Positions 1,422-64,000 of a stretch of 64,000 nucleotides of DNA are shown here, piece by piece; position 1 is the first letter of the stretch; every line of letters begins with the position of its first letter. The notes beneath the pieces were generated by a model that had not been told where the DNA came from, searched no databases, and was given only the letters and a program-made list of their open reading frames with translations. Source of the DNA: Bradyrhizobium sp. CCGB12 (GTDB taxonomy: Bacteria > Pseudomonadota > Alphaproteobacteria > Rhizobiales > Xanthobacteraceae); contig NZ_JANADO010000001.1 in the NCBI RefSeq assembly GCF_024199845.1, forward strand, positions 1,116,001-1,180,000. The letters are read 5' to 3'. The position numbers and the translations under genes are program-made.

Positions 1422-1805
1422 TCAGGATTTGGCGAGGCGCAGTGCGACGCAGCCGTCCATCACGAAGCGGCTGATGGCGTAGCGGCCAATGGGCAATGCA
1501 ATGCGGCGCTCAAAACGCCCCTGCGGCAGCTCGAGCCGGTGGATGCGGGCGTTGCGAAGCTCCGGCGGAAGGGTGCGCTGGCCGGAGATGACGAGCACGC
1601 CGTCATGGATCACCGTCTCGACATTGTCAGGATTGACGCCGGGGAGCGCGACCAGGATCAGGAGCTCATGCTCGGTCTCGAGCACGTCGATCGGCGGCTC
1701 CCAGCAGGCTTCCTGGCGGCCGAACTGCTGGCGCAGCCGTTCGGCGCGGGTCAGCTGGTCCAGGGCTTCGGACAGCATCCAGTCGAGGGGATTTTTGGGT
1801 TGCAT
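1422..1805 (-). CDS. Hsp20/alpha-crystallin family small heat-shock protein
   Basis: Holdase chaperone that binds unfolding proteins in the cytoplasm. The 127-residue product has a short helical N-terminus and an alpha-crystallin beta-sandwich from about residue 35, with the usual block LVALPGVNPDNVE and the LPIGRY region near the end. It is short for the family, and I see no clear C-terminal I-x-I anchoring motif, so oligomerisation may differ from classical sHsps. It is the first gene of a probable two-gene unit with lon, 8 bp apart, pairing a holdase with a protease for the same damaged substrates. Start is the ATG at 1805. Confidence 0.88.
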   Translation of the reverse strand: MQPKNPLDWMLSEALDQLTRAERLRQQFGRQEACWEPPIDVLETEHELLILVALPGVNPDNVETVIHDGVLVISGQRTLPPELRNARIHRLELPQGRFERRIALPIGRYAISRFVMDGCVALRLAKS

Positions 1806-1928
1806 GGCAAGACTCGGGCAAGGCGCTGCGGTTGGAAAGCGAGGATATGGGGGCGGTTCCCCGGAAATCCAGCGTACATCCAGGACATGCCTGCCTCAAC
1901 CGGAGCAGGCCTTGCAGCCCAACGCATC

Positions 1929-1955
1929 GGCGCCGCGGACATGTTCCGCGGCGCC
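1929..1955. terminator. GC-rich perfect stem-loop between hsp20 and the DUF892 gene
   Basis: Perfect 11-bp inverted repeat (GGCGCCGCGGA with its complement) around a 5-nt loop, 30 bp after the stop of the minus-strand DUF892 gene. It could end that transcript, but no T-run follows in the minus direction, so it is either a weak terminator or an RNA-stabilising hairpin. The rest of the 179-bp gap should hold the hsp20 promoter; I saw no clear heat-shock promoter or CIRCE element. Confidence 0.45.
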
Positions 1956-1984
1956 GCCAGCAACAATTCACCTCACGCACGGCA

Positions 1985-2551
1985 TCAGGCCGCGGCGCGG
2001 TACTCGTCTTCCGCTTCGAGGTTGATCACGGAGGTCGCGAGCTCAGTCAGCGCGTGATCGGTCGCCTCTTCCTCGTCCAGCGTCTCCTGAAGCAGCCTTG
2101 CGGCGTCCTCCATGCCGAGCTCCTCGGCCCAGGTGCGCAGCGTGCCGTAGCGGGATATCTCGTAGTGCTCGACCGCCTGCGCCGCGGCGAGCAGGCCGGC
2201 GTCGAGGGCAGGCGCGTTCTTGAACTCCTTCATGATCTCGGCGCCCTCGTCGGTGATACCGTTGATCGCCTCACAGGGCTTGCCGCGCGCGGGCTTGCCC
2301 AGCATCCTGAAGATCTGGTCAAGCCGTTTGACCTGGCCCTGCGTCTCGCGCAGATGCTTGTTGAAGGCCGCTGCTAGATCCTTCGAGTGTGCGGCCTTGG
2401 CCATCTTGGGCAGCGTCTTGATGATCTTGTTCTCGGCGAAATAGATGTCCTTCAGCGTTTCCAGAAACAGGTCGCTGAGCATCTTCGGCGCCTGACGCGG
2501 GCGGCGCGCCGCGGTCTTCTTGGTTGTGCGTTTCTTCGCTCGTTTAGCCAT
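1985..2551 (-). CDS. DUF892 (YciE/YciF-type) ferritin-like protein
   Basis: 188 residues. A Lys/Arg-rich N-terminal tail (about 22 residues with three KK/RR clusters) precedes a four-helix ferritin-like domain. Motifs seen are LFLETLKDIYFAENKI, HLRETQGQVKRL, AVEHYEISRYG and LDEEEATDHALTELA. The Glu/His residues in these helices match the di-metal ligands of the YciF family, which is linked to stress responses in enterobacteria; the reaction is unknown. The basic tail resembles those of nucleic-acid-binding proteins, which is an inference only. Start is the ATG at 2551. It stands alone, with a hairpin after its stop. Confidence 0.88.
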   Translation of the reverse strand: MAKRAKKRTTKKTAARRPRQAPKMLSDLFLETLKDIYFAENKIIKTLPKMAKAAHSKDLAAAFNKHLRETQGQVKRLDQIFRMLGKPARGKPCEAINGITDEGAEIMKEFKNAPALDAGLLAAAQAVEHYEISRYGTLRTWAEELGMEDAARLLQETLDEEEATDHALTELATSVINLEAEDEYRAAA

Positions 2552-2663
2552 ACATCCTCCTCTTGAGGCGACACGGGAAGGCGTCTCCTTCCTCGATCCT
2601 CAGGCGATCAAAGCGGCTTGGAGAACGAAAGTTCCAAACTACCATTGGCGCTCGCAGCGACGC

Positions 2664-2870
2664 TCAGGTCGGACGCTTGTAGGGATCTTCCTGGCGTTGC
2701 CGCGCCTCGGTGTTGCGGTCGAGCTGCGCACGTTCGGCGCGCCGCAGGTGCCCGGCCTTCATCACGCCATAGGCGAGGGCCGCGCCGAGCAGGAAAGCGC
2801 CGATGAACCAGAGCCAGAGCAGGTTGGCCGAGAGCTGGCCGAGCAGCATTCCGATTCCACTGTCGCTCAT
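2664..2870 (-). CDS. Small single-pass membrane protein, unknown function
   Basis: 68 residues with one hydrophobic segment (about residues 13-38, LLWLWFIGAFLLGAALAYGVM) followed by a charged tail rich in Arg, Glu and Gln (RRAERAQLDRNTEARQRQED). The charge pattern suggests the tail stays in the cytoplasm. I recognise no family. It is divergently oriented to the MarC gene 89 bp away and may share its control region. Real-gene status rests on the clean TM-plus-tail pattern and its position between convincing genes. Confidence 0.6.
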   Translation of the reverse strand: MSDSGIGMLLGQLSANLLWLWFIGAFLLGAALAYGVMKAGHLRRAERAQLDRNTEARQRQEDPYKRPT

Positions 2871-2959
2871 TGATCGTCTCCGATGATTTGCAAAACGGCT
2901 CTGCCGGGCTAAGTCAGTCCGCCAGCCATCGTTCCTGCGTCCAAGGAGCCCACCGAGAC

Positions 2960-3586
2960 ATGATCGACTTCACACTGTCGGCCTTCGTGACGCTGCTGCT
3001 GGTGGTCGATCCCGTCGGCCTCGCGCCGGCCTTCCTGGCCGCCACCGGCGGCATGCCCGACAAGGTCAAGCGGACGATCGCGTTGCGGGCGCCGCTGATC
3101 GCCGCCTCGATCCTGGTCGTGATCGCGCTGGTCGGAAACTGGCTGCTCCGCCAGCTCGGGATCGGCATCCCCGCCTTCCAGATCGCCGGCGGGCTGCTGC
3201 TGTTCGGCGTCTCGTACCAGATGATCTTCGGCGACCGTCCGCATCGCGAGGCTCGGGAGGCCGACAAGGCCACATCGGAGCACGCCTCCGATGTCGCGGT
3301 GTTTCCACTGGCCATTCCCATGATGGCTGGCCCCGGCGCGATCGCGACCACGCTGCTGCTGGCGGGCGATGCCGGCTATGGGGCGAGGCTCGCGATCATC
3401 ATCGCGGTGGTGATCTCGGTGTGCCTGCTCTGCATGCTGTGCTTCGTCTCAGCTCACCTGATCGCCCGCACCCTCGGACGCACCGGAAATGCCGTACTCT
3501 CGCGCGTGCTCGGCATGCTACTCGCCGCCTATTCGGTGCAGTTCGTGATCAACGGATTTGCGGCCGTCCGGGCGAGCCTGTCGTAA
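2960..3586 (+). CDS. MarC family integral membrane protein
   Basis: 208 residues, six predicted hydrophobic segments. MarC features are the N-terminal LLLVVDPVGLAPAFLA, the mid-protein FGVSYQMIFGD and AIPMMAGPGAIATTLLL, where the P-x-MAGPGAI block is diagnostic. The biochemical role is unsettled; the early link to multiple antibiotic resistance has not held up. The reading frame is open 90 nt further upstream, but the ATG at 2960 is chosen because hydrophobic MarC sequence begins immediately there. No partner gene is evident. Confidence 0.87.
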   Translation: MIDFTLSAFVTLLLVVDPVGLAPAFLAATGGMPDKVKRTIALRAPLIAASILVVIALVGNWLLRQLGIGIPAFQIAGGLLLFGVSYQMIFGDRPHREAREADKATSEHASDVAVFPLAIPMMAGPGAIATTLLLAGDAGYGARLAIIIAVVISVCLLCMLCFVSAHLIARTLGRTGNAVLSRVLGMLLAAYSVQFVINGFAAVRASLS

Positions 3587-3754
3587 GAGTGCGACAATCT
3601 GGTAATTTATTGATTCTACGGTCTATTTCGAGGAATCGCGGATCTGTCAGCAAGACGGCACATGATCGGGTCGCTTTCGCTTGCACTGCGGCATTGCTTT
3701 GACGTACTCCCCCCTGACAAACGTCCATCGCCAAGAAGCCGAGAAAAAATCAAG

Positions 3755-3937
3755 ATGTCGATGACAGCGGACGAGCTCGACAAGAGACAGGCGATCATCG
3801 ACGCCTGCCGCCGCACGAACGCGCTCGGCGTCAACCAGGGCACCTCCGGCAAGATCAGTGTCCCGCCGCTGCTCTCCGGCGCCGAGATCGAGCGGGTCTC
3901 CCGGCGCATGGCCGGCTACGGCCTGGCGGAAGGGTAG
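3755..3937 (+). pseudogene. Class II aldolase remnant: N- and C-terminal ends joined, middle deleted
   Basis: The 60-residue frame opens with the typical start of class II aldolase/adducin proteins (ACRRTNALGVNQGTSGKIS), the beginning of the fold that binds phosphate and metal. After about residue 36 it jumps to ERVSRRMAGYGLAEG, which resembles the extreme C-terminus of the same family. About 150 residues, including all metal-binding histidines, are missing, so the product cannot be an aldolase. The reading frame is kept across the junction and an ATG is present, so a short peptide could be made. Family identity is moderately sure; the deletion is inferred from family length. Confidence 0.6.
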
Positions 3938-4000
3938 GGCGGGCAGAAGGTGTTCGTACGGATCAGACGTCTCGTCGATCGCAAGGGGACGAACCGCACC

Positions 4001-5737
4001 ATGGTTCGGCTGCGCGCCCTGCTGCGCAGCAACGAGTTCTACCTGATCCCTCTCGCGCTCGTGATCGGCACGCTCGCGGGCGCGGTGGTGACGCTGATGG
4101 CCCACATCGCCCAAATCGCGCATGTGGTGATTTACGGAATTCCCGTTGATGTCCACTTGTCGGCTCACGCGTATGTCAGCCCCTGGGCGGCGCTGATCGC
4201 GCCTGCGCTTGGCGGGCTCGCGCTCGGCATCATGGAATGGTCGCGGCGGCGCATGAAGATCTCGAACGCCGTCGACCCGATCGAGGCGAACGCGTTGCGC
4301 GGCGGCAATCTGTCGATGCGGGACAGCGTGGTGGTGTCGAGCCAGACCCTGATCTCCAACGGCTGCGGCGCCTCGGTCGGCCTCGAGGCCGGCTATACCC
4401 AGATCGGCTCGGGTATCGCCTCGCTGCTCGGCAAGTTCTTCAATCTGCGCCGCAACGATCTGCGCCTGATGGTCGGCTGCGGCGCTGCCGCCGCGATCGC
4501 GGCGGCGTTCGGCGCGCCGATCACGGGCGCCTTCTACGCCTGCGAGCTCATCGTCGGCGTCTATTCGGTCGGCAGCGCCGCGCCGATCCTGGCGGCCTCG
4601 CTCGCGGGCGCCCTGACCGCGCAATGGCTCGGCGGCGCGCCGTACTCGCTGGAGATACCGAAGGTCAGCGCCGTCGGCGTCGAGCAATACCTGGCCCTGA
4701 TCGGGCTCGCCCTCGTCACCAGCGGCGTCGGCATCGCCGTGATGCGCTCCTCGTCGATGTTCGAGCGCCTGTTCGCATGGATGCCGGTCTGGCTGCGTCC
4801 GGTGATCGGCGGCCTCATCGTCGGCAGTTTCGCCATCGTCACGCCGCAGGTACTGGCAGCCGGCCACGGCGCCATGGTGCTCGATCTCTTCCACGAGATG
4901 ACGATCGGCCTGATCGCGCTGATCATCGCCCTGAAGGTGACGGCCTGCCTGATCTCGCTGGCCTCGGGCTTTCGCGGCGGCCTGTTCTTCGCCTCGCTGT
5001 TCGTCGGCAGCCTGATCGGAAAGTTCTTCGCCGCGGTGCTGCTTCTGATCAGTCCGAATTTCGTGATCGATCCGCTGGTGGCGATGCTGACGGGCATGGC
5101 GACGCTCGGTGTCGCCGTCGTCGGCGGTCCCCTCACCATGTCGTTCCTCGTGCTCGAGATGACCCGCAATGTCGACGTTACCGCCGTGGTGCTGGCTGGC
5201 TGCATCGTCACCTCGATCTGCGTCCGCTTCATGTTCGGCCACTCCTTCTCGACCTGGCGCCTGCATCTGCGCGGCGAGACCATTCGCAGCGCCAACGACG
5301 TCGGCTGGCTGCGCAATCTCACCGTCGAACGCTTGATGCGCTCCGACGTCGGTAAGGTGCCGTCGACCACGACGATCGCCGCGGTCCGCCGCGAATTCGC
5401 GCTGGGCTCGCGGCCGGGCGTCGTCATCGTCAACAATGCCGACGAATATGTCGGTCTCGTCCTGCTGCCCGATTTGTTCTCCAGCGACCTCGACACCATC
5501 GCCGACGATATCCAGGTGATCGAGCTTGCCCGCCTGATCGACATCGTGCTGATCCCGGAAATGAACGTGAAGTCGGCGATGGCGGTGTTCGACGAGGCCG
5601 AAGCCGAGATGCTGGCGGTGGTCGATTCCACCGACAGCCGCAAGGTGGTCGGCTTCCTCACCGAGAACTTCGTCCGCCGCCGCTATGTCGAGGAAATCGA
5701 CAAGGCGACGCGCGGCGTGTTGGGCGCGCTGTCTTAA
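4001..5737 (+). CDS. ClC-type chloride channel/antiporter with C-terminal CBS region
   Basis: 578 residues. The ClC membrane domain covers about residues 1-430 and a cytosolic CBS-pair region about 445-575. The gating glutamate segment is present as SVGLEAGYTQ, and GAAAAIAAAFGAPITGAFYACE is the conserved helix after it. The usual selectivity motif GSGIP is replaced by a stretch around AVDPIEAN, and the GxFxP block by SGFRGGLFFAS, so the protein belongs to a non-canonical ClC branch and ion preference cannot be assigned. The frame also opens at a GTG at 3950; the ATG at 4001 is preferred because it follows AAGGGGAC and begins close to the first membrane helix. It lies just after the aldolase remnant. 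Confidence 0.9.
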   Translation: MVRLRALLRSNEFYLIPLALVIGTLAGAVVTLMAHIAQIAHVVIYGIPVDVHLSAHAYVSPWAALIAPALGGLALGIMEWSRRRMKISNAVDPIEANALRGGNLSMRDSVVVSSQTLISNGCGASVGLEAGYTQIGSGIASLLGKFFNLRRNDLRLMVGCGAAAAIAAAFGAPITGAFYACELIVGVYSVGSAAPILAASLAGALTAQWLGGAPYSLEIPKVSAVGVEQYLALIGLALVTSGVGIAVMRSSSMFERLFAWMPVWLRPVIGGLIVGSFAIVTPQVLAAGHGAMVLDLFHEMTIGLIALIIALKVTACLISLASGFRGGLFFASLFVGSLIGKFFAAVLLLISPNFVIDPLVAMLTGMATLGVAVVGGPLTMSFLVLEMTRNVDVTAVVLAGCIVTSICVRFMFGHSFSTWRLHLRGETIRSANDVGWLRNLTVERLMRSDVGKVPSTTTIAAVRREFALGSRPGVVIVNNADEYVGLVLLPDLFSSDLDTIADDIQVIELARLIDIVLIPEMNVKSAMAVFDEAEAEMLAVVDSTDSRKVVGFLTENFVRRRYVEEIDKATRGVLGALS

Positions 5738-6976
5738 TCACTCCAGCTGATCGACCTCGCGCAGCGCCGGGAACAGCTTCATCCAGAGCAGCGCGATCGC
5801 GATGGTGCCGATCCCGCCGAGTGCCGCCGCCGGCATCGCGCCGAGCAGGGCCGCCGCCATGCCGCTCTCGAATTCGCCAAGCTGATTCGAGGCGTTGATG
5901 AAGAGGAAGTTGACGGCGCCGACGCGGCCGCGCATCGCATCCGGTGTCGAAAGCTGTACCAGCGCGACGCGGACCACGACGCTGATCGTGTCGGCTGCGC
6001 CCATCGCGGCAAGCGCGACGATCGAGATCCAGATGTTTTTCGACTGCGCGAACACGATGGTCGCGAGCCCGAAGGCGATCACCGCCTGGAACATTCGCAG
6101 GCCCGCGCGCCGTGTGATCGGATGGCGCGCGATCACAGCGGTCATCAAGAGCGCGCCGACCGCAGGCGCGGCACGCATCACGCCGAGCGCCCACGGCCCG
6201 GCCTGCAAGATATCCTTAGCATAGATCGGCAGCAGCGCGGTGGCACCGCCGAGCAGGACCGCGAACAGATCGAGTGAGATCGTGCCGAGGATCGCGGGAT
6301 TGCTGCGGACGAAATGCAGGCCGGCGAACAGGCCGTCGACACCTTCGTGTTCGGAAGGCGCGGCGCGTTCGACCCGGATCAGGCCGCTGAGGCCGCACGC
6401 GATCAGCGACAGCACGGCCATCAAAACGAACGGCGCGCCTGGTGAGATGGCGTAAGCGAGCCCGCCAACGGCCGGACCGCCAATGGCCGCGACCTGCCAG
6501 GTGCCGGTCGATAGCGCGGTCGCTCGTTGCAGCATGCCTTCCGGTGCGACGGCCGGCAGCAGCGCCGACGAGGCGGGACTCTCGAAGGCGCCGCAGAGAC
6601 CGAACACGCTGAGCACGATGAATATCTCGGGCGCGGTGAGTGTCCCCATCAGCAGTCGCACCGCGAGATAACCGGCGGCGAGGCCTTGCGTCAGCTCGCA
6701 GAGCTGGACGATGCGCCTGCGGTCGTGGCGGTCGGCCGCATGTCCGGCGACAAAGACGAGCAGCGCGCTCGGAATGAACTGCACGAGACCGGCAAGGCCG
6801 AGATAGAGGGCGCTGCCGGTCAGCGCGTAGATCTGCCAGCCCACAGCGACGGTAGCGACCTGATAGGAGAATTCCGACAGGGTTCGCGAGGCGATGTAGA
6901 GCAGCAGCGGAGGATGTCGCGACAGCGAGACGGGAGAGGTGAGAAGTGTGGAAGCCTGGTCCAAGGTGGTGAGCAA
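5738..6976 (-). CDS. Major facilitator superfamily exporter (EntS/DHA3-like)
   Basis: 412 residues with about 12 hydrophobic segments. The loop 2-3 motif is seen as GHAADRHDRRRIV, typical of the DHA3 drug/siderophore exporter branch, and the central block CGAFESPASSALLPAV also fits it. The substrate is unknown. The frame has no ATG or GTG near its start: the first usable codon after an in-frame stop is TTG at 6976, and the first helix follows at about residue 22, so TTG is accepted with reserve. It is convergent with the ClC gene, directly abutting its stop codon. Confidence 0.87.
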   Translation of the reverse strand: MLTTLDQASTLLTSPVSLSRHPPLLLYIASRTLSEFSYQVATVAVGWQIYALTGSALYLGLAGLVQFIPSALLVFVAGHAADRHDRRRIVQLCELTQGLAAGYLAVRLLMGTLTAPEIFIVLSVFGLCGAFESPASSALLPAVAPEGMLQRATALSTGTWQVAAIGGPAVGGLAYAISPGAPFVLMAVLSLIACGLSGLIRVERAAPSEHEGVDGLFAGLHFVRSNPAILGTISLDLFAVLLGGATALLPIYAKDILQAGPWALGVMRAAPAVGALLMTAVIARHPITRRAGLRMFQAVIAFGLATIVFAQSKNIWISIVALAAMGAADTISVVVRVALVQLSTPDAMRGRVGAVNFLFINASNQLGEFESGMAAALLGAMPAAALGGIGTIAIALLWMKLFPALREVDQLE

Positions 6977-8804: not shown

Positions 8805-8934
8805 GCTGTCATCGCCCGCGAAACAGAAGGCGGGCGATCCAGTACTCCGAGACGGCAGTGATTGCATCGAGACGCCGCAGCGTACTGGATTCCCCGCTCC
8901 AGTGCGCAATTGCGCACAAGGCGGGAATGACAGC
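8805..8934. repeat. Palindromic intergenic repeat 2 (GCTGTCATCGCCCGC arms)
   Basis: Inverted repeat with outer arms beginning GCTGTCATCGCCCGC and ending GCGGGAATGACAGC, plus inner complementary blocks (CCAGTAC near 8839 with GTACTGG near 8883). Typical of dispersed Bradyrhizobium intergenic palindromes. Non-coding. Confidence 0.7.
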
Positions 8935-53393: not shown

Positions 53394-53445
53394 AGTTGAC
53401 CCGTCGGGCAAAACACCTGTATAAGTAGATCATCGCAAGACGCGT
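53394..53445. repeat. Divergent copy A of the CGTCGGGCAAAACAC repeat, with promoter-like boxes
   Basis: GTTGACCCGTCGGGCAAAACACC followed by TGTATAAGTAGATCATCG matches the start of the three repeats at 60419, 61598 and 63516 (TTGACACGTCGGGCAAAACACTGG...GGCATCATCG). Here TTGACC and TATAAG are 18 bp apart and look like a plus-strand promoter, yet no gene follows in that direction and no terminator hairpin is present. Confidence 0.55.
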
Positions 53446-58998: not shown

Positions 58999-59490
58999 AT
59001 GAGAACGACCTTCAATGTCGCCGAGCACGGCACCGGATCCTACCGGCCGCTCGCCATCCTGCGCTGGGTCATGGTGATCATCTTCATCTCGTTCGGCATG
59101 CAGAAATTCACGCCGCAATCGGCGCAAGGCATCGCGCAGTTCATCACCAACAGCCCGTTCATCTCCTGGCTCCAGGTGTTCGGCCTGCGCGGCGAGGCCT
59201 ACTTCCTGGGCGTCACCGAATTCGCCATCGCCGCGCTGCTGATCGCCGGCGCCTTCAACCCGTTGCTCTCGGCAATCGGCGCCTTCATGGGCGTCGTCAC
59301 CTTCGCCGTCACGTTCTCGTTCTTCTTCACCACGCCCGGCGTGGTGAAGTGGTCGCTCTCGACCGATCCGATGGCTTGGAATCTCGCCGGAGAATTCCTG
59401 TTCAAGGACATCGTGCTGCTGGCGGTGTGCGTCGTGTTGCTGCTGGCGTCGCTGCCGGAGGCGGTGGGGCGGGTGCGAAACGTCGATTGA
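58999..59490 (+). CDS. DUF417 (YkgB-like) membrane protein
   Basis: 163 residues with four hydrophobic segments. Family features are the LRWVMVIIFISFGMQKFTP first helix, then FGLRGEAYFLGVTEFAIAAL and FTTPGVVKWSLSTDPMAWN. DUF417 proteins are DoxX-like inner-membrane proteins of unknown function, sometimes linked to oxidant response. The ATG at 58999 has CAGGGGAAAAC upstream. Confidence 0.87.
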   Translation: MRTTFNVAEHGTGSYRPLAILRWVMVIIFISFGMQKFTPQSAQGIAQFITNSPFISWLQVFGLRGEAYFLGVTEFAIAALLIAGAFNPLLSAIGAFMGVVTFAVTFSFFFTTPGVVKWSLSTDPMAWNLAGEFLFKDIVLLAVCVVLLLASLPEAVGRVRNVD

Positions 59491-59579: not shown

Positions 59580-60368
59580 ATGAGTAACGCGCTTCTCGCT
59601 TTGGTCTTGTTGGACCGTCCGGCCACGCCCGATATGTCCGCCGTTGCCAGGATCCTTCGCGAGCGGCATCCGGATTTGGCAACTGGGCCGAATGAAGATG
59701 GCGGCGTGCGACAGGCTAAGGCCAACTCGCCGCTGATTCACTGCGGCAATGAGCTTGTTGCGGTCATGTCGATGCCGGCTCCCATTCCGGAGGATACTGG
59801 CCTGTGGGCGCGCGCTGCCAGGACGTGGCCGGAGAGCAAGGCGGCAGCCACCCGGCATCGAGGTCACCTGATCGTCTCGATGGTGGGAAAGAACGAGCGG
59901 CCGCTCGTCGCCGCGCGCGTCACCACCGCAGTGATCGGCGCGTTGATCGCCGCAATGCCGGAATGCTGCGGCGTGGTGTGGGCTGGCCAGGTCGCGCGGC
60001 CCTCTGATCTCTGGCGGGACATGTCCAGCCGATCGTTTGCGCCGTTCCCCGACTATCCCTTCACGCTGTGGGTCGACATTCTTCCCTTCCAGTCGGATGG
60101 GAAGATCGGCGCAATCACGGTGGGATTGTCCTCCTTCGTCGGACGCGAGATCGAGTTCAGGACTGGAAAGCTGACGTTGCCGGCCCTGATCGACAAGGTG
60201 GCCGGACTCTCCGTCTATCTGATCGAGCATGGAAACGTGGTGAAGGATGGCGATACGATCGGCGCAAATGAGGACGAGCGTATCGCTGTTCGATATAGGA
60301 ATTCCGAGGTTTTTGGCGAGTTGCCTGTGTTCTCTTGTACTGATGACTTCGCACGCTCGTCTCAATGA
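59580..60368 (+). CDS. DUF4261 domain protein
   Basis: 262 residues, soluble. The chain starts with a strand LLALVLLDRPATPDMS and continues as an alpha/beta domain (ELVAVMSMPAPIPEDTGLW; VTTAVIGALIAAMPECCGVVW; FPDYPFTLWVDIL), with the typical DUF4261 C-terminal part. The biochemical role is unknown. ATG at 59580 after GGGGCAGTCC. It is the first gene of the repeat-punctuated array; its 3' end exists a second time, decayed, at 60600-60780, and the first repeat (60419) follows its stop by 50 bp. Confidence 0.78.
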   Translation: MSNALLALVLLDRPATPDMSAVARILRERHPDLATGPNEDGGVRQAKANSPLIHCGNELVAVMSMPAPIPEDTGLWARAARTWPESKAAATRHRGHLIVSMVGKNERPLVAARVTTAVIGALIAAMPECCGVVWAGQVARPSDLWRDMSSRSFAPFPDYPFTLWVDILPFQSDGKIGAITVGLSSFVGREIEFRTGKLTLPALIDKVAGLSVYLIEHGNVVKDGDTIGANEDERIAVRYRNSEVFGELPVFSCTDDFARSSQ

Positions 60369-60418
60369 GCTGCGTCCCACTCGTCGATATCGTGAGGTGC
60401 GGTGCTTGGACCGATCGT

Positions 60419-60502
60419 TTGACACGTCGGGCAAAACACTGGCAGAGTGGCATCATCGAAAGAATCCGGATCAAGCCCGCGGGATGCCGCGGGCTTTTTT
60501 GT
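60419..60502 (+). repeat. Array repeat B ending in a terminator hairpin
   Basis: Begins TTGACACGTCGGGCAAAACA, continues CTGGCAGAGTGGCATCATCG and ends in a perfect hairpin GCCCGCGG-GATG-CCGCGGGC (60475-60494) plus six T residues, an efficient intrinsic terminator. Closely similar copies follow the next two genes (61598, 63516) and a partial one lies at 53394. Confidence 0.85.
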
Positions 60503-60564
60503 TGGGCAGTATCGTCGTCTCCGCCGGGTGGCGTTGCAGGCACGATGTTCAATAAGGCTCAGTC

Positions 60565-60787
60565 ATGAGTGACGAACATCAAAGCCGTCTGTGGCCAGCT
60601 AAGCTCACGCTTCTGGCACTGATTGACAAGGTGGCTGGACTCTCCGTCTGTCTGATAGAGCACGGAAACGTGGTGAAGGATGGCGACATTATCGGGGCAA
60701 ATGCAGGACGAGCGCATCGCGGATCGTTACAAGAAGTCTGATGTTTTTGGAGGGCCCGGTGCTTTTCAGTACTGATGACTTCGCGTA
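60565..60787 (+). pseudogene. Decayed duplicate of the 3' end of the DUF4261 gene
   Basis: From about 60600 to 60780 the sequence aligns to 60168-60350 of the intact gene at roughly 80% identity (LIDKVAGLSVCLIEHGNVV against LIDKVAGLSVYLIEHGNVV). An extra C at about 60703 shifts the frame, and translation from an ATG at 60565 stops after 58 residues at 60741. The shared sequence ends at TGATGACTTCGC in both. It is a 3' remnant left by a tandem duplication or a lost second cassette. Confidence 0.8.
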
Positions 60788-60838
60788 GGGGGGTATCGTC
60801 AGCACATCATAGGCCCGTGTGTAAACGAGAGAAAACGG

Positions 60839-61462
60839 ATGGTTCATTCCTTTCCAGAGAAGCGCCATGGCAAGGCAAAGGCTCGAAGATTCTATGTCGT
60901 AGGTTTGGACTTCAGGCTTCAAACGGCGCCGGGATGGGAGATGGAAAATCTCGAGGTTGTCGCCGGCGTGCGCAAAATACTCATTGCACCACCGGGGCGG
61001 GGCTTCGTGCCTTTTCCTGAACCACCGCGGCTCGTGATCGACAAGTCTCTCGGTCGCGCTCCCAGGGACTGGGAGCTCTTTCACGACTACTGGCTCGCTT
61101 CCGACCGGATGAAGATCCTTCTTGAGACGTTAGATTTGGAGGGAGTTCGTTTTGTCAGATGCGAGACACGATATCGAGACGGTCGCGCAGCGCCTACGTA
61201 TTGGCTTTGCGACGTCATCCGGGTTCTCGATGTCGTCGACGAAGAGAGGTCGGTTCTCAAGATCGATTATCCCACACCCGATCGTAAGGTTTACGATCTG
61301 AGTGCAAGAAGCTGTCTCCTCTTCAAAGAGGATAGTGTCGGAGCGGCCCATATCTTCAGGCTTCGCTTTTATCCAATGATAGTCTGCGACGAGGTCGTCA
61401 AGGATGCTTGCAAGGAAGCGGGCATGAGGGGCATCGGATTCACCGATGCGACCAAGTATTGA
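60839..61462 (+). CDS. DUF1629/Imm11-type immunity-like protein
   Basis: 207 residues, soluble. Residues about 45-190 show the DUF1629 pattern: LIAPPGRGFVPFPEPPRLVI, LGRAPRDWELFHDYWLASDR, then MKILLETLDLEGVRFVRCET and a WLCDVIRVLDVVDEERS strand-helix block. DUF1629 is classed as immunity family Imm11 in polymorphic toxin systems, where it neutralises a neighbouring nuclease toxin. The AHH nuclease-like gene lies 448 bp downstream on the same strand with repeat C between them, so an immunity role is plausible, though the immunity-first order is atypical. No strong ribosome binding site at the ATG (60839). Confidence 0.75.
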   Translation: MVHSFPEKRHGKAKARRFYVVGLDFRLQTAPGWEMENLEVVAGVRKILIAPPGRGFVPFPEPPRLVIDKSLGRAPRDWELFHDYWLASDRMKILLETLDLEGVRFVRCETRYRDGRAAPTYWLCDVIRVLDVVDEERSVLKIDYPTPDRKVYDLSARSCLLFKEDSVGAAHIFRLRFYPMIVCDEVVKDACKEAGMRGIGFTDATKY

Positions 61463-61597
61463 GCTTACGCGCAGCTGCCGCCGATGGTGAGATTCCATGG
61501 CTGAGAATCCAGCCTATGGAAATGGAAAAGCCTTGCTCTTGAGGCGTGGCTCATCGAGCGTTACGAACGGAAGGCGTTGTGGCTCCAGGTTTGCTCG

Positions 61598-61683
61598 TTG
61601 ACACGTCGGACAAACACCGGCGGAGTGCGATAATCCAGAAGATCTTGGGTGACGCTCGCGAGGATTTCGCGGGCTTTTTTGTT
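61598..61683 (+). repeat. Array repeat C ending in a terminator hairpin
   Basis: TTGACACGTCGGACAAACACCGG... then a hairpin GCTCGCGA/TCGCGGGC (61654-61674, one G-U pair) followed by six T residues. It is the most divergent of the three array copies. It lies 135 bp after the immunity-like gene and 227 bp before the AHH gene, so the two genes are probably transcribed separately. Confidence 0.78.
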
Positions 61684-61910
61684 GGCTCTTCTTCGCAGCA
61701 GGCAGGCGTTTCTTGGCGGTGGCCTCCTGCGAGAATGCTTGCCTTAGGCAATTGCATGGAGCGGCGTTCATGAGTCTCGACGCCGCTATGGGTTACTAGC
61801 TGCCGCTTCACCTACGGCAAAGATAAGCGATCAAAATCTCCACTCGCATGCGGGCACCAAACGGCTTGGGGCCACGCACACTGATGCCTTGCGTAAGGCA
61901 AGAGGATAGC

Positions 61911-63473
61911 ATGCTTCAGATCCATCACATCTTGCCACAGAGCCTTGCGCGCCACTTCACACTCAAGGTCTTGGGCAATCGTTTCAGCCTCAATGGCATC
62001 AAGAATTTGATAGCTCTGCCATCAGATGTACAAGCAGCTCGCGAGCTAGGATCAAGTCCTCATTCAGGAGGTCATCTCGGGAACTATAGCAAGATTTTTT
62101 GCAAGTTTCTTGGTCAACTCCAGTCGCACCCGTCCTTCGCCGCTGCTCAGGAAGGCGATACCGCTGCCATTGATCAACTTGATGCCGAGATGAGCAGCTT
62201 TCTCGCCGCTGCGAAGTATGCTCTCGCGAAGGGACACTTGCTCACCAATACACCCTCGGGAATGACACAGGAGGACGCGAACAGGCGTATCGAAGACTGG
62301 TACGCAAATTGGCGAACGTATGCCAAAGAGAATCGAGACAACATTCAGCAGATGCTGGATACCGTCGACCAACTCCATGGCGCTAACCAATGGGAAGCCG
62401 CTCTGCGCGGTCCTATCCTCCTTCCGGACGACACTCTCAGTCTCGCGGACAGGATAGCGATCTTGGCGCGATACCACTCCAGTTCGCATATTTCTCAGCA
62501 CTTCGCGCCTGTTGGACCTGTTCCCGATCTGCCTGGCCTCGTTGCCCCCGTTATCGATACGCGTCTGCCCGGCTTTACTCCGTCTCTACCTGGAGATTTG
62601 GATCGACCGGAGGGATTCACGCCAAGTCCGCTTCAAACCTATGGACCGCCCGGCTTCCCGGTGGTCGATCCGCGAGGCTTTGGGCAATTACCTCCAACAA
62701 GGGCTGCTCCATCGGAGCCGCAAGTCTTGCAATTCCATTCCGAGACAAGCCAACCGCTGATGTTCACTGATGGCTCACCTGTGTTAGGGCCGCCGATACC
62801 TCCTGATGGAGGCTCCGCCTTGTTGATGGGAGCGGGTGTGCTTGGTGCGGGCGCCCTGATGATACCTGGATTGCAGGGGCTCGGTGCTAGGTTACTCGCA
62901 GGTGCGACTGCGGCCGCTCTCACCCGACCTGCTTTTTCAGCGAGTGTCTCAGGTGATGCCAACGTTGCAGATGGAAGTGTTTTCTCCAAAGGGGCGGCTC
63001 CTTACAATCCGTTCGACTTCGGCCGTCCGGCACACGACGCGCAGGCGGTTCAGGCCAGCCCCTTTGCTGATCGCTTCGGACGTTGGACCGACATCTCGGC
63101 AGGCACTCCGCTCGCGCAGCCCTCGAACGTACAGGAAGTGCTCGACACTCCTACCGCGGAAGCTGTCGCGCCCGAAGATGTGCGGCGTCTCACCCGTGTT
63201 AACGCGTCGAATGCGGGCAGCGTGTTCTCGTCTGGCACTGCGCCGCTCCCATATCTGCCCTCTACCGAATTCAATGAGCGGTTTGGCCGTTGGACCGTGC
63301 CGACCGCTGACGGCCGGCAACCGCAGACGAGCAAGCCGATAGGTATATTCGCGGATGAGCCAAGCTACCTCATTCCACCGCCGATCTTCGGAGTGGATGG
63401 TCCGGGCAATCCGCACAACGACGCTGAGGAGTGGTTCTCGCGCTGGATACGGCCACTGCTTCGCCCGGAGTGA
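61911..63473 (+). CDS. Protein with N-terminal AHH nuclease-like domain
   Basis: 520 residues. The AHH-type HNH-fold nuclease motif begins at residue 4: His5-His6 in LQIHHILPQSLARH, then IKNLIALPSD and the second histidine set His51 and His55 with Tyr59 (SPHSGGHLGNYS). A helical part reaches residue 160, then a Pro-rich region (about 205-290), a hydrophobic Gly/Ala segment (LLMGAGVLGAGALMIPGLQG, about 303-340) and a C-terminal part with repeated SVFS...RFGRWT units at about 388 and 456 and EEWFSRW at 507. In polymorphic toxins AHH is normally C-terminal, so this order is reversed. The ATG at 61911 is chosen over one at 61848 because AGAGGATAGC precedes it. Activity is unproven. Confidence 0.72.
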   Translation: MLQIHHILPQSLARHFTLKVLGNRFSLNGIKNLIALPSDVQAARELGSSPHSGGHLGNYSKIFCKFLGQLQSHPSFAAAQEGDTAAIDQLDAEMSSFLAAAKYALAKGHLLTNTPSGMTQEDANRRIEDWYANWRTYAKENRDNIQQMLDTVDQLHGANQWEAALRGPILLPDDTLSLADRIAILARYHSSSHISQHFAPVGPVPDLPGLVAPVIDTRLPGFTPSLPGDLDRPEGFTPSPLQTYGPPGFPVVDPRGFGQLPPTRAAPSEPQVLQFHSETSQPLMFTDGSPVLGPPIPPDGGSALLMGAGVLGAGALMIPGLQGLGARLLAGATAAALTRPAFSASVSGDANVADGSVFSKGAAPYNPFDFGRPAHDAQAVQASPFADRFGRWTDISAGTPLAQPSNVQEVLDTPTAEAVAPEDVRRLTRVNASNAGSVFSSGTAPLPYLPSTEFNERFGRWTVPTADGRQPQTSKPIGIFADEPSYLIPPPIFGVDGPGNPHNDAEEWFSRWIRPLLRPE

Positions 63474-63515
63474 AGACTGACTACGCAGCCGCGTAATGTC
63501 TTCGAGCTCAATCGT

Positions 63516-63600
63516 TTGACACGTCGGGCAAAAACACTGGCAGAATGGCATCATCGAAATAGTTCAGACAAGGCCCGCGGGATACCGCGGGCCTTGTGTT
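63516..63600 (+). repeat. Array repeat D ending in a hairpin
   Basis: TTGACACGTCGGGCAAAAACA, then CTGGCAGAATGGCATCATCG and a perfect hairpin GGCCCGCGG-GATA-CCGCGGGCC (63572-63593), followed by TTGTGTTT. Nearly identical to copy B over the first 45 bp. It lies 42 bp after the AHH gene. As in B, the hairpin acts as the end of the upstream gene and also faces the convergent monooxygenase gene. Confidence 0.82.
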
Positions 63601-63625: not shown

Positions 63626-64000
63626 CTACGTCGCTGCCGCTGCTCCGAACCATCTCGCCAACGCTTCCGCAAGTCCGCGCTGGCCTTCGTCTCCCACCCA
63701 GGCCACATGGCCGTCGGGCCGCACGAGCACTGCGTCTGGCGCTGCGACCGGTCCAAGGGCTGGAAGCTCCCATGGGCCGTCGTAGTCGGCATTGATGACA
63801 CCGATGCGATCGGCCCAGGGCGTGATGTCAATGCCACCGGGCTTGCCGAAACCAAGCAGCACGCCGCGCGCGCCGTGCAGCAGCGTGAACAATCTCAGCT
63901 TCTGTCCTTCGACCGTCAGATCGAGGTCGGGCATGCGGCGGCCGAGCAGCGCGTGTCCCTCGCCAAGATCATAGTGAATGTCGAGACCGCTCATCATCGC
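63626..64000 (-). CDS. FAD-dependent aromatic monooxygenase, C-terminal part (cut by window edge)
   Basis: 124 codons, open at the right edge. The segment (YDLGEGHALLGRRMPDLDL, then LFTLLHGARGVLLGFGK and ALGPVAAPDAVLVRPDGHVAW) is the thioredoxin-like C-terminal domain of PheA/TfdB-type flavin monooxygenases, which hydroxylate phenolic or polyketide-like compounds using NAD(P)H. VRPDGHVAWVG is the family's characteristic last strand. The FAD and catalytic domains lie outside the window. It ends 26 bp from repeat D and is unrelated to the toxin-like array. Confidence 0.85.
   Translation of the reverse strand, partial: AMMSGLDIHYDLGEGHALLGRRMPDLDLTVEGQKLRLFTLLHGARGVLLGFGKPGGIDITPWADRIGVINADYDGPWELPALGPVAAPDAVLVRPDGHVAWVGDEGQRGLAEALARWFGAAAAT

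Follow-up and report, generated by a model that had tools for sequence, protein, structure and literature searches.

A Bradyrhizobium locus with an N-terminal AHH nuclease-like tip and an upstream Imm11 gene is probably a reversed two-allele polymorphic toxin-immunity system

Polymorphic toxins are described as proteins with a C-terminal toxin domain and an immunity gene placed 3' of the toxin gene, an order in which one recombination event brings both (Zhang et al. 2012, PMC3482391). AHH-Imm11 pairs of Myxococcus act in kin discrimination, and in M. xanthus DK1622 the toxin gene comes first, with its immunity gene downstream (PMC12077181). Here we describe a locus in the last 5 kb of a 64,000-nucleotide window of Bradyrhizobium sp. 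CCGB12 (G000:C1:1116001-1180000, where G000 is the genome holding the window; coordinates are those of the window unless prefixed). On its plus strand stand a DUF417 gene, a DUF4261 gene, the decayed 3' end of a second DUF4261 gene, an Imm11 gene and an AHH-like gene, followed by a convergent gene for a FAD-dependent hydroxylase, of which the window holds the 3' end. This locus is probably a reversed two-allele polymorphic toxin-immunity system, in which the repeats of the surrounding array would serve mainly as terminators.

The arrangement is a mirror image of the textbook polymorphic toxin, with the same exchange logic applied from the other side. It resembles polymorphic toxins with toxin-immunity order and polyimmunity loci in its constant body, its exchangeable tip and immunity gene, and its leftover immunity genes. 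Unlike the published template (PMC3482391), it has an N-terminal tip and an upstream immunity gene, and only two tip types are seen. The M. xanthus AHH-Imm11 systems, which are tied to the type VI secretion system and to outer-membrane-exchange kin discrimination, share the two protein families and the extra Imm11 genes beside the toxin, whereas here Imm11 lies upstream and the nuclease-like part at the N-terminus, in a module that starts with a DUF4261 gene and is followed by R repeats. A reversed tip and immunity gene suggests that the linkage rule, exchange of both in one event, would hold without any need for toxin-then-immunity order.

For comparison, arrays were taken from G000 and eight relatives of the same genus, together with 25 loci from named genomes (Bradyrhizobium or Bradyrhizobiaceae), giving 31 loci once three duplicates had been removed. 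The tip is N-terminal in all 26 aligned AHH proteins, and Imm11 (in one case a fragment) is found upstream of all 26 genes. The first 190 residues fall into two types with 25% identity between and 51% within types; residues 381-520, the last 140, show 60% and 61% identity, respectively, so the body is independent of tip type. Both tip types share a set of residues: HH5-6 is kept in 25 of the 26 proteins (one row is gapped), and N32, H51, H55 and Y59 are kept in all 26. The Tox-AHH motif of PMC3482391 has the same residues ([AG]HH, N, H, H, Y), except that here the position ahead of HH is mostly I or D, not A or G. Four of the seven relatives scanned score above the Pfam AHH (PF14412) cut-off (25.7-36.8 bits) and three below it (15.2-16.9 bits). 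Residues 1-170 are modeled confidently, with block means of 88-98 for the predicted local distance difference test (pLDDT), and the C-terminal remainder has low model confidence and is probably disordered. Family membership and the shared residues suggest that the tip is a toxic nuclease.

Members of the AHH family are present in 23 of the 98 genomes scanned in the genus. Two protein searches gave 161 relatives, which belong to Bradyrhizobium wherever an organism is named among the matches listed, bar one metagenome-assembled genome labelled Acidobacteria. Clustered at 90% identity, they comprise 91 proteins of type 0, 67 of type 1 and 3 that are tipless. These near-even tip types (91 and 67 protein clusters), in a genus with legume symbionts, make inter-strain exclusion directly testable. 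Outside the module, two extra open reading frames resemble the AHH protein in its body (L074:16631-17476 and L084:20411-21415); in the sequence fetched around them, neither is followed by R.

The immunity gene follows the tip. Imm11 (PF07791) matches Pfam over the cut-off in the window (166.1 bits) and in a type-II copy (150.6 bits), and its profile matches M. xanthus MXAN_0049 (6a4c; E 2.5e-5), which is named immunity 1 in PMC12077181. As a member of this family, Imm11 would neutralize the tip. The adjacent upstream Imm11 fits the tip type in 13 of 13 type-0 and 12 of 13 type-1 genes (25/26), and in the remaining type-1 case, L078, it is a fragment of undetermined type. Outer Imm11 copies of the opposite type persist in L063, L077, L080 and L082, and G017 retains a 63-aa frame clustering with AHH tips. 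The Imm11 genes of the G017 tandem module also have a DDE_5 transposase gene among them (L056:14912-16396). DUF4261 does not track tip type and is best regarded as a partner that stays constant.

Tip type carries no phylogenetic signal on the trees of the body and of the neighboring FAD hydroxylase. On the body tree it needs 10 changes, against a shuffled mean of 8.9 (438 of 500 shuffles are as low), and on the hydroxylase tree it needs 6 against 6.2, as at random. The edges of exchange can be placed on DNA alignments of mixed-type pairs. Between the sister loci L069 (type 0) and L081 (type 1), homology runs through DUF4261 and its repeat to position 8924, breaks, and resumes at about AHH codon 229. 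In five more such pairs the left edge lies near the DUF4261 stop or past an outer Imm11 gene, and the right edge at about codons 226-403. Tandem [Imm11-AHH-R] units are found in L065 and G017. Because of these homology edges, the type matching and the lack of tip signal on the two trees, tips and immunity genes appear to have been replaced as one block between constant anchors, and the putative exchanged unit is the Imm11 gene with the first ~200 codons of the AHH gene.

In the proposed mechanism, DUF4261 (followed by R in 15 of 26 loci) would form the left anchor and the AHH C-terminal body with its R the right one, and between them the variable block would hold at least one Imm11 gene together with the N-terminal nuclease-like tip. 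Homologous recombination through the anchors would swap this block, so that a new tip would arrive with its matching Imm11 upstream, and outer Imm11 copies and tip fragments would be the remains of earlier replacements. An earlier note, made from the window alone, had proposed a modular toxin/immunity island with every gene as its own module. Its toxin/immunity-type character and the turnover of modules are borne out by the comparison, and what is swapped is Imm11 with the tip, not the individual gene.

Several observations weigh against a reversed polymorphic toxin. The window protein reaches 20.5 bits with Pfam AHH, just under the cut-off of 22.3, and its tip matched nothing in the PDB by structure or sequence search and has no clear structural neighbor that would point to the HNH/EndoVII fold of Tox-AHH nucleases. 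Two tip types alone were found among the 161 relatives, fewer than in typical polymorphic toxins, and tip types come from one clustering threshold. Gene calls and clusters come from our own codon-usage script. Some phylogenetic signal is possible on the CoA-transferase tree, which requires 4 changes of tip type; the mean over shuffles is 5.6-5.7, and 54-78 of 500 shuffles are as low. Pfam scans of the locus proteins found no secretion or delivery domain; no search was aimed at secretion systems or delivery signals.

This last point touches on a different role for the Imm11-AHH pair, that of intracellular defence (toxin-antitoxin or abortive infection) in place of an inter-strain weapon. No delivery module is known for the pair (none was searched for), and its immunity gene lies upstream, as the antitoxin gene does in many antitoxin-toxin operons. 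Two similarly frequent tip types, matched immunity and a conserved C-terminal body instead fit inter-strain competition, in which the toxin would be delivered to rival cells, and Myxococcus AHH-Imm11 pairs act in kin discrimination (PMC12077181). We regard intracellular defence as unlikely.

The repeat of the array has a 48-bp core (R), which in most copies is joined to a predicted intrinsic terminator (together R-T). As the earlier note had seen, the DUF4261, Imm11 and AHH-like genes of the window, all on one strand, are each followed by a copy of ~85 bp. Pairwise, the three copies agree at 75/83, 68/82 and 61/79 aligned bases, with alignment scores of 29.5-59 against at most 7.5 in 1000 single-base shuffles. 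Across the loci, every one of the 31 AHH genes in module position has an R core 6-76 nt past its stop; after DUF4261, where the core is present there, the distance is 38-70 nt. A strong hairpin with a T run is found in 117 of 183 array copies, compared with 4 of 94 copies dispersed elsewhere in the genomes. Of 98 non-redundant array copies, 46 were preselected for a T run, and in these one stem pair shows five GC-to-AU double changes. On these sequence patterns, the simplest reading is that R-T is a terminator module, which would act mainly at the 3' ends of transcripts; as repeated homology it would also set some block edges and permit the tandem gain of [Imm11-AHH-R] units.

Two further counter-points concern this role. 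The terminator criterion fails in 66 of 183 array copies, and the share of genome comparisons in which a gene adjacency is broken is 39% with R between the genes and 21% without it (shared ancestry is uncorrected in this contrast), so that R-T may be more than a terminator. Within gaps of 120-700 nt, the same contrast is 32% against 19%. The repeats could then be handles for homologous recombination that actively delimit the exchanged blocks, with termination secondary. Both adjacency contrasts would fit such handles, as would the left exchange edge of L069/L081, which is the end of R-T, and the tandem unit in L065. Left edges nevertheless lie away from R in L064/G005, L068/L079 and L071/L078, and a control comparing dispersed copies with sites that carry only their partner motif M (described below), which counted in how many of the pairs with a conserved upstream side that side alone was conserved, gave no significant difference (11/25 against 4/21 pairs, Fisher p = 0.11). 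We consider active delimitation by R-T somewhat unlikely as the primary role.

The earlier note had gone further, with each gene and its own 3' repeat as a travelling unit and with recombination between the repeats. Between loci, the toxin tip, the number of Imm11 genes and the neighboring blocks do vary, as it had expected of other Bradyrhizobium genomes, and several blocks that were moved or duplicated have R copies at their flanks, so the recombination part holds in some measure; edges also occur near the DUF4261 3' end, at outer Imm11 genes and inside the AHH gene. The travelling unit itself fails. Single genes are not cassettes, because the order DUF4261-Imm11-AHH is identical in all 23 loci where all three are called; R is missing after DUF4261 in 11 of 26 loci, and just four loci (G000, L061, L062 and L064) have it between Imm11 and AHH.

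A cassette array of a new principle, with a gene or block and its 3' R-T moved by integron-like site-specific recombination at R, would account for several features. R is co-oriented in 182 of the 183 array copies in the 31 loci, and homology blocks start or end at R in many pairs; a block of R and gene cluster cl4 has AHH as its neighbor in G018, where it occurs twice, and in G014, but cl19 in G000. The FAD hydroxylase changes sides, standing to the left of the module in 4 loci and to its right in 20. At a dispersed site, G002 has a 4.4-kb cargo between R and a degenerate R', where G000 is cargo-free with R and, by eye, an R'-like remnant. Against site-specific recombination stand the fixed three-gene order, the many junctions where R is missing, and the places of dispersed copies in G000, 26 of 33 of which are common to other species. 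Since R itself is shared, breakpoints at R would also look the same under homologous recombination. No integron integrase exceeds the cut-off in the genome of the window (best TIGR02249 match 77 bits against 265; other recombinases were not searched for). Chromosomal integron arrays, with units of one gene and one attC in variable order, are alike in their co-oriented repeats between variable genes, and differ from this locus, which has several genes per interval, a fixed three-gene order, a terminator-like hairpin in the repeat and no integrase over the cut-off. The earlier note had not called this an integron array; the likeness of R to attC was judged by eye only. A cassette array at R is, in our judgment, quite improbable. 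The data support recombination in or near R-T, and they do not support a dedicated recombinase or a per-gene cassette mechanism.

The module is absent from G008 and G009 at this locus. Their arrays (L054 and L055) have R repeats in the same place, with other variable genes instead.

The R core is also scattered genome-wide, which, like the fixed gene order, counts in part against the cassette idea by the earlier note's own reckoning. Of 5 genomes of the genus, 4 contain the exact core, which none of 114 genomes from 46 other genera in the family does; with one mismatch allowed, it turns up in 17 of 19 genomes within the genus but in none of 12 genomes from other families. In G000, 33 dispersed copies were fetched, spread across the chromosome and all intergenic by our own gene calls. 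Motif M accompanies 89 of 94 dispersed copies, with R standing behind M, and most of these lack the terminator; within 250 nt upstream of array copies, M was found in 0 of 182. The M-R elements lie just 3' of same-strand genes in 68 of 88 cases (dispersed R places L003-L034 and L086-L145).

Repetitive extragenic palindromic (REP) elements, miniature inverted-repeat transposable elements (MITEs) and similar repeats occur as tens of short intergenic copies, and R could be a recently mobile element of this kind that accumulates here by chance, as the 33 intergenic copies of G000 might suggest. When these copies were compared with 36 from G002 and 25 from G008, 26 of the 33 had a counterpart at an orthologous place. 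Altogether 55 cross-genome pairs stand at orthologous places, 28 with both flanks conserved, 26 with the upstream flank only and 1 with the downstream flank only, and the core is nearly invariant while the flanks diverge. Unlike REP or MITE repeats, R has positions shared between species, a near-invariant core and a partner motif M that is directed to the origin, and a recently mobile element is highly improbable. The G002 cargo mentioned above (L148, reverse strand 1501-5927) contains SDR, AraC, methyltransferase-like and DUF2147 genes, and its cargo-free counterpart in G000 is L155 (2002-2228).

The orientation of M suggests a link to the chromosome. With the parS cluster taken as the origin and the point opposite parS as the terminus, exact M (ACAACCCCATGCACAGTAG; e.g. 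G000:C1:7382417, L166) has 62, 66 and 64 copies in G000, G002 and G008, of which 47, 51 and 46 are oriented toward the origin. In the origin-proximal half the proportions are 29/32, 32/36 and 29/35, and one M copy lies between parS sites in each of the three genomes. The upstream flank of M-R is far more often conserved between species than the downstream flank, and the same holds for M-only sites. R may tentatively be viewed as half of a bipartite, Bradyrhizobium-specific M-R system of chromosome polarity or landmarks; R-T would then be R without M and with a terminator, recruited to the toxin locus, and its fixed orientation would limit exchange to in-register replacement. No description of such a polarity or landmark system was found in the literature searched. 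The array repeat thus leads on to an origin-oriented chromosomal motif that is open to standard testing. Exact M is missing from all 59 genomes checked in 46 other genera of the family, and from 3 of 10 tested within the genus. Several observations speak against a role in the chromosome. M is scarce or lacking in six genomes tested in the genus (15, 8, 2, 0, 0 and 0 copies in G004, G010, G001, G003, G015 and G012). G009 has 49 exact copies, none listed beside its parS. The positions of M are shared by descent, so that G000, G002 and G008 are not independent, and M is evenly spaced in G008 but not in G000.

The features of the locus are collected in Table 1. The loci are usually framed by an Nramp-type transporter gene on the left and by genes for a CoA transferase, an acyl-CoA dehydrogenase and what we take to be a flavin reductase-like protein on the right. 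The decayed second DUF4261 3' end, which the earlier note had placed between the first repeat and the Imm11 gene, is confirmed in pieces of 79-86% identity.

Table 1. Features of the toxin-immunity locus and its repeats in the window
Feature	Position	Strand	Remarks
R core copy	53396-53443	+	Left part of locus; 0 mismatches in 20-bp core; core scan of window
DUF417 gene	58999-59490	+	Directly before DUF4261
DUF4261 protein, 262 aa, constant left anchor (proposed)	59580-60368	+	Pfam 43.6 bits (cut-off 27)
R-T copy 1, 48-bp R core and terminator-like hairpin GCCCGCGGGATGCCGCGGGCTTTTTT	60419-60503	+	Core start 51 nt past DUF4261 stop
Relics region	60540-60790	+	Type-II-like Imm11 leader (to about 60590, by eye), then decayed DUF4261 3' end
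DUF4261 3'-end relic	about 60601-60784	+	Pieces at 86%, 80% and 79% identity
Imm11 (type I) putative immunity protein, 207 aa	60839-61462	+	Pfam 166.1 bits (cut-off 22.1)
R-T copy 2	61598-61682	+	Core start 136 nt past Imm11 stop; most diverged of the three; 4 mismatches in 20-bp core
AHH-like gene	61911-63473	+	Longer start at 61848 possible
AHH-like putative toxin tip, type 0, residues 1-200	61911-62510	+	HH at 5-6, N32, H51, H55, Y59
Rest of AHH gene, linker and constant C-terminal body	62511-63473	+	Residues about 381-520 best conserved
R-T copy 3	63516-63600	+	Directly 3' of AHH gene; core start 43 nt past stop
FAD-dependent aromatic-ring hydroxylase, 3' part, convergent	63626-64000	-	Continues beyond window (L001:11627-13162)

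The array extends beyond the window, with 8 same-strand R cores in G000:C1:1169395-1183036. These include the copy at 53396 and four further copies just past the window end (G000:C1:1181284, 1182147, 1182252 and 1183036), which the earlier note did not contain. A DUF417 gene stands directly before DUF4261 both in the window and at L064:7490 (B. cajani), the latter being the sole case among the 25 named loci.

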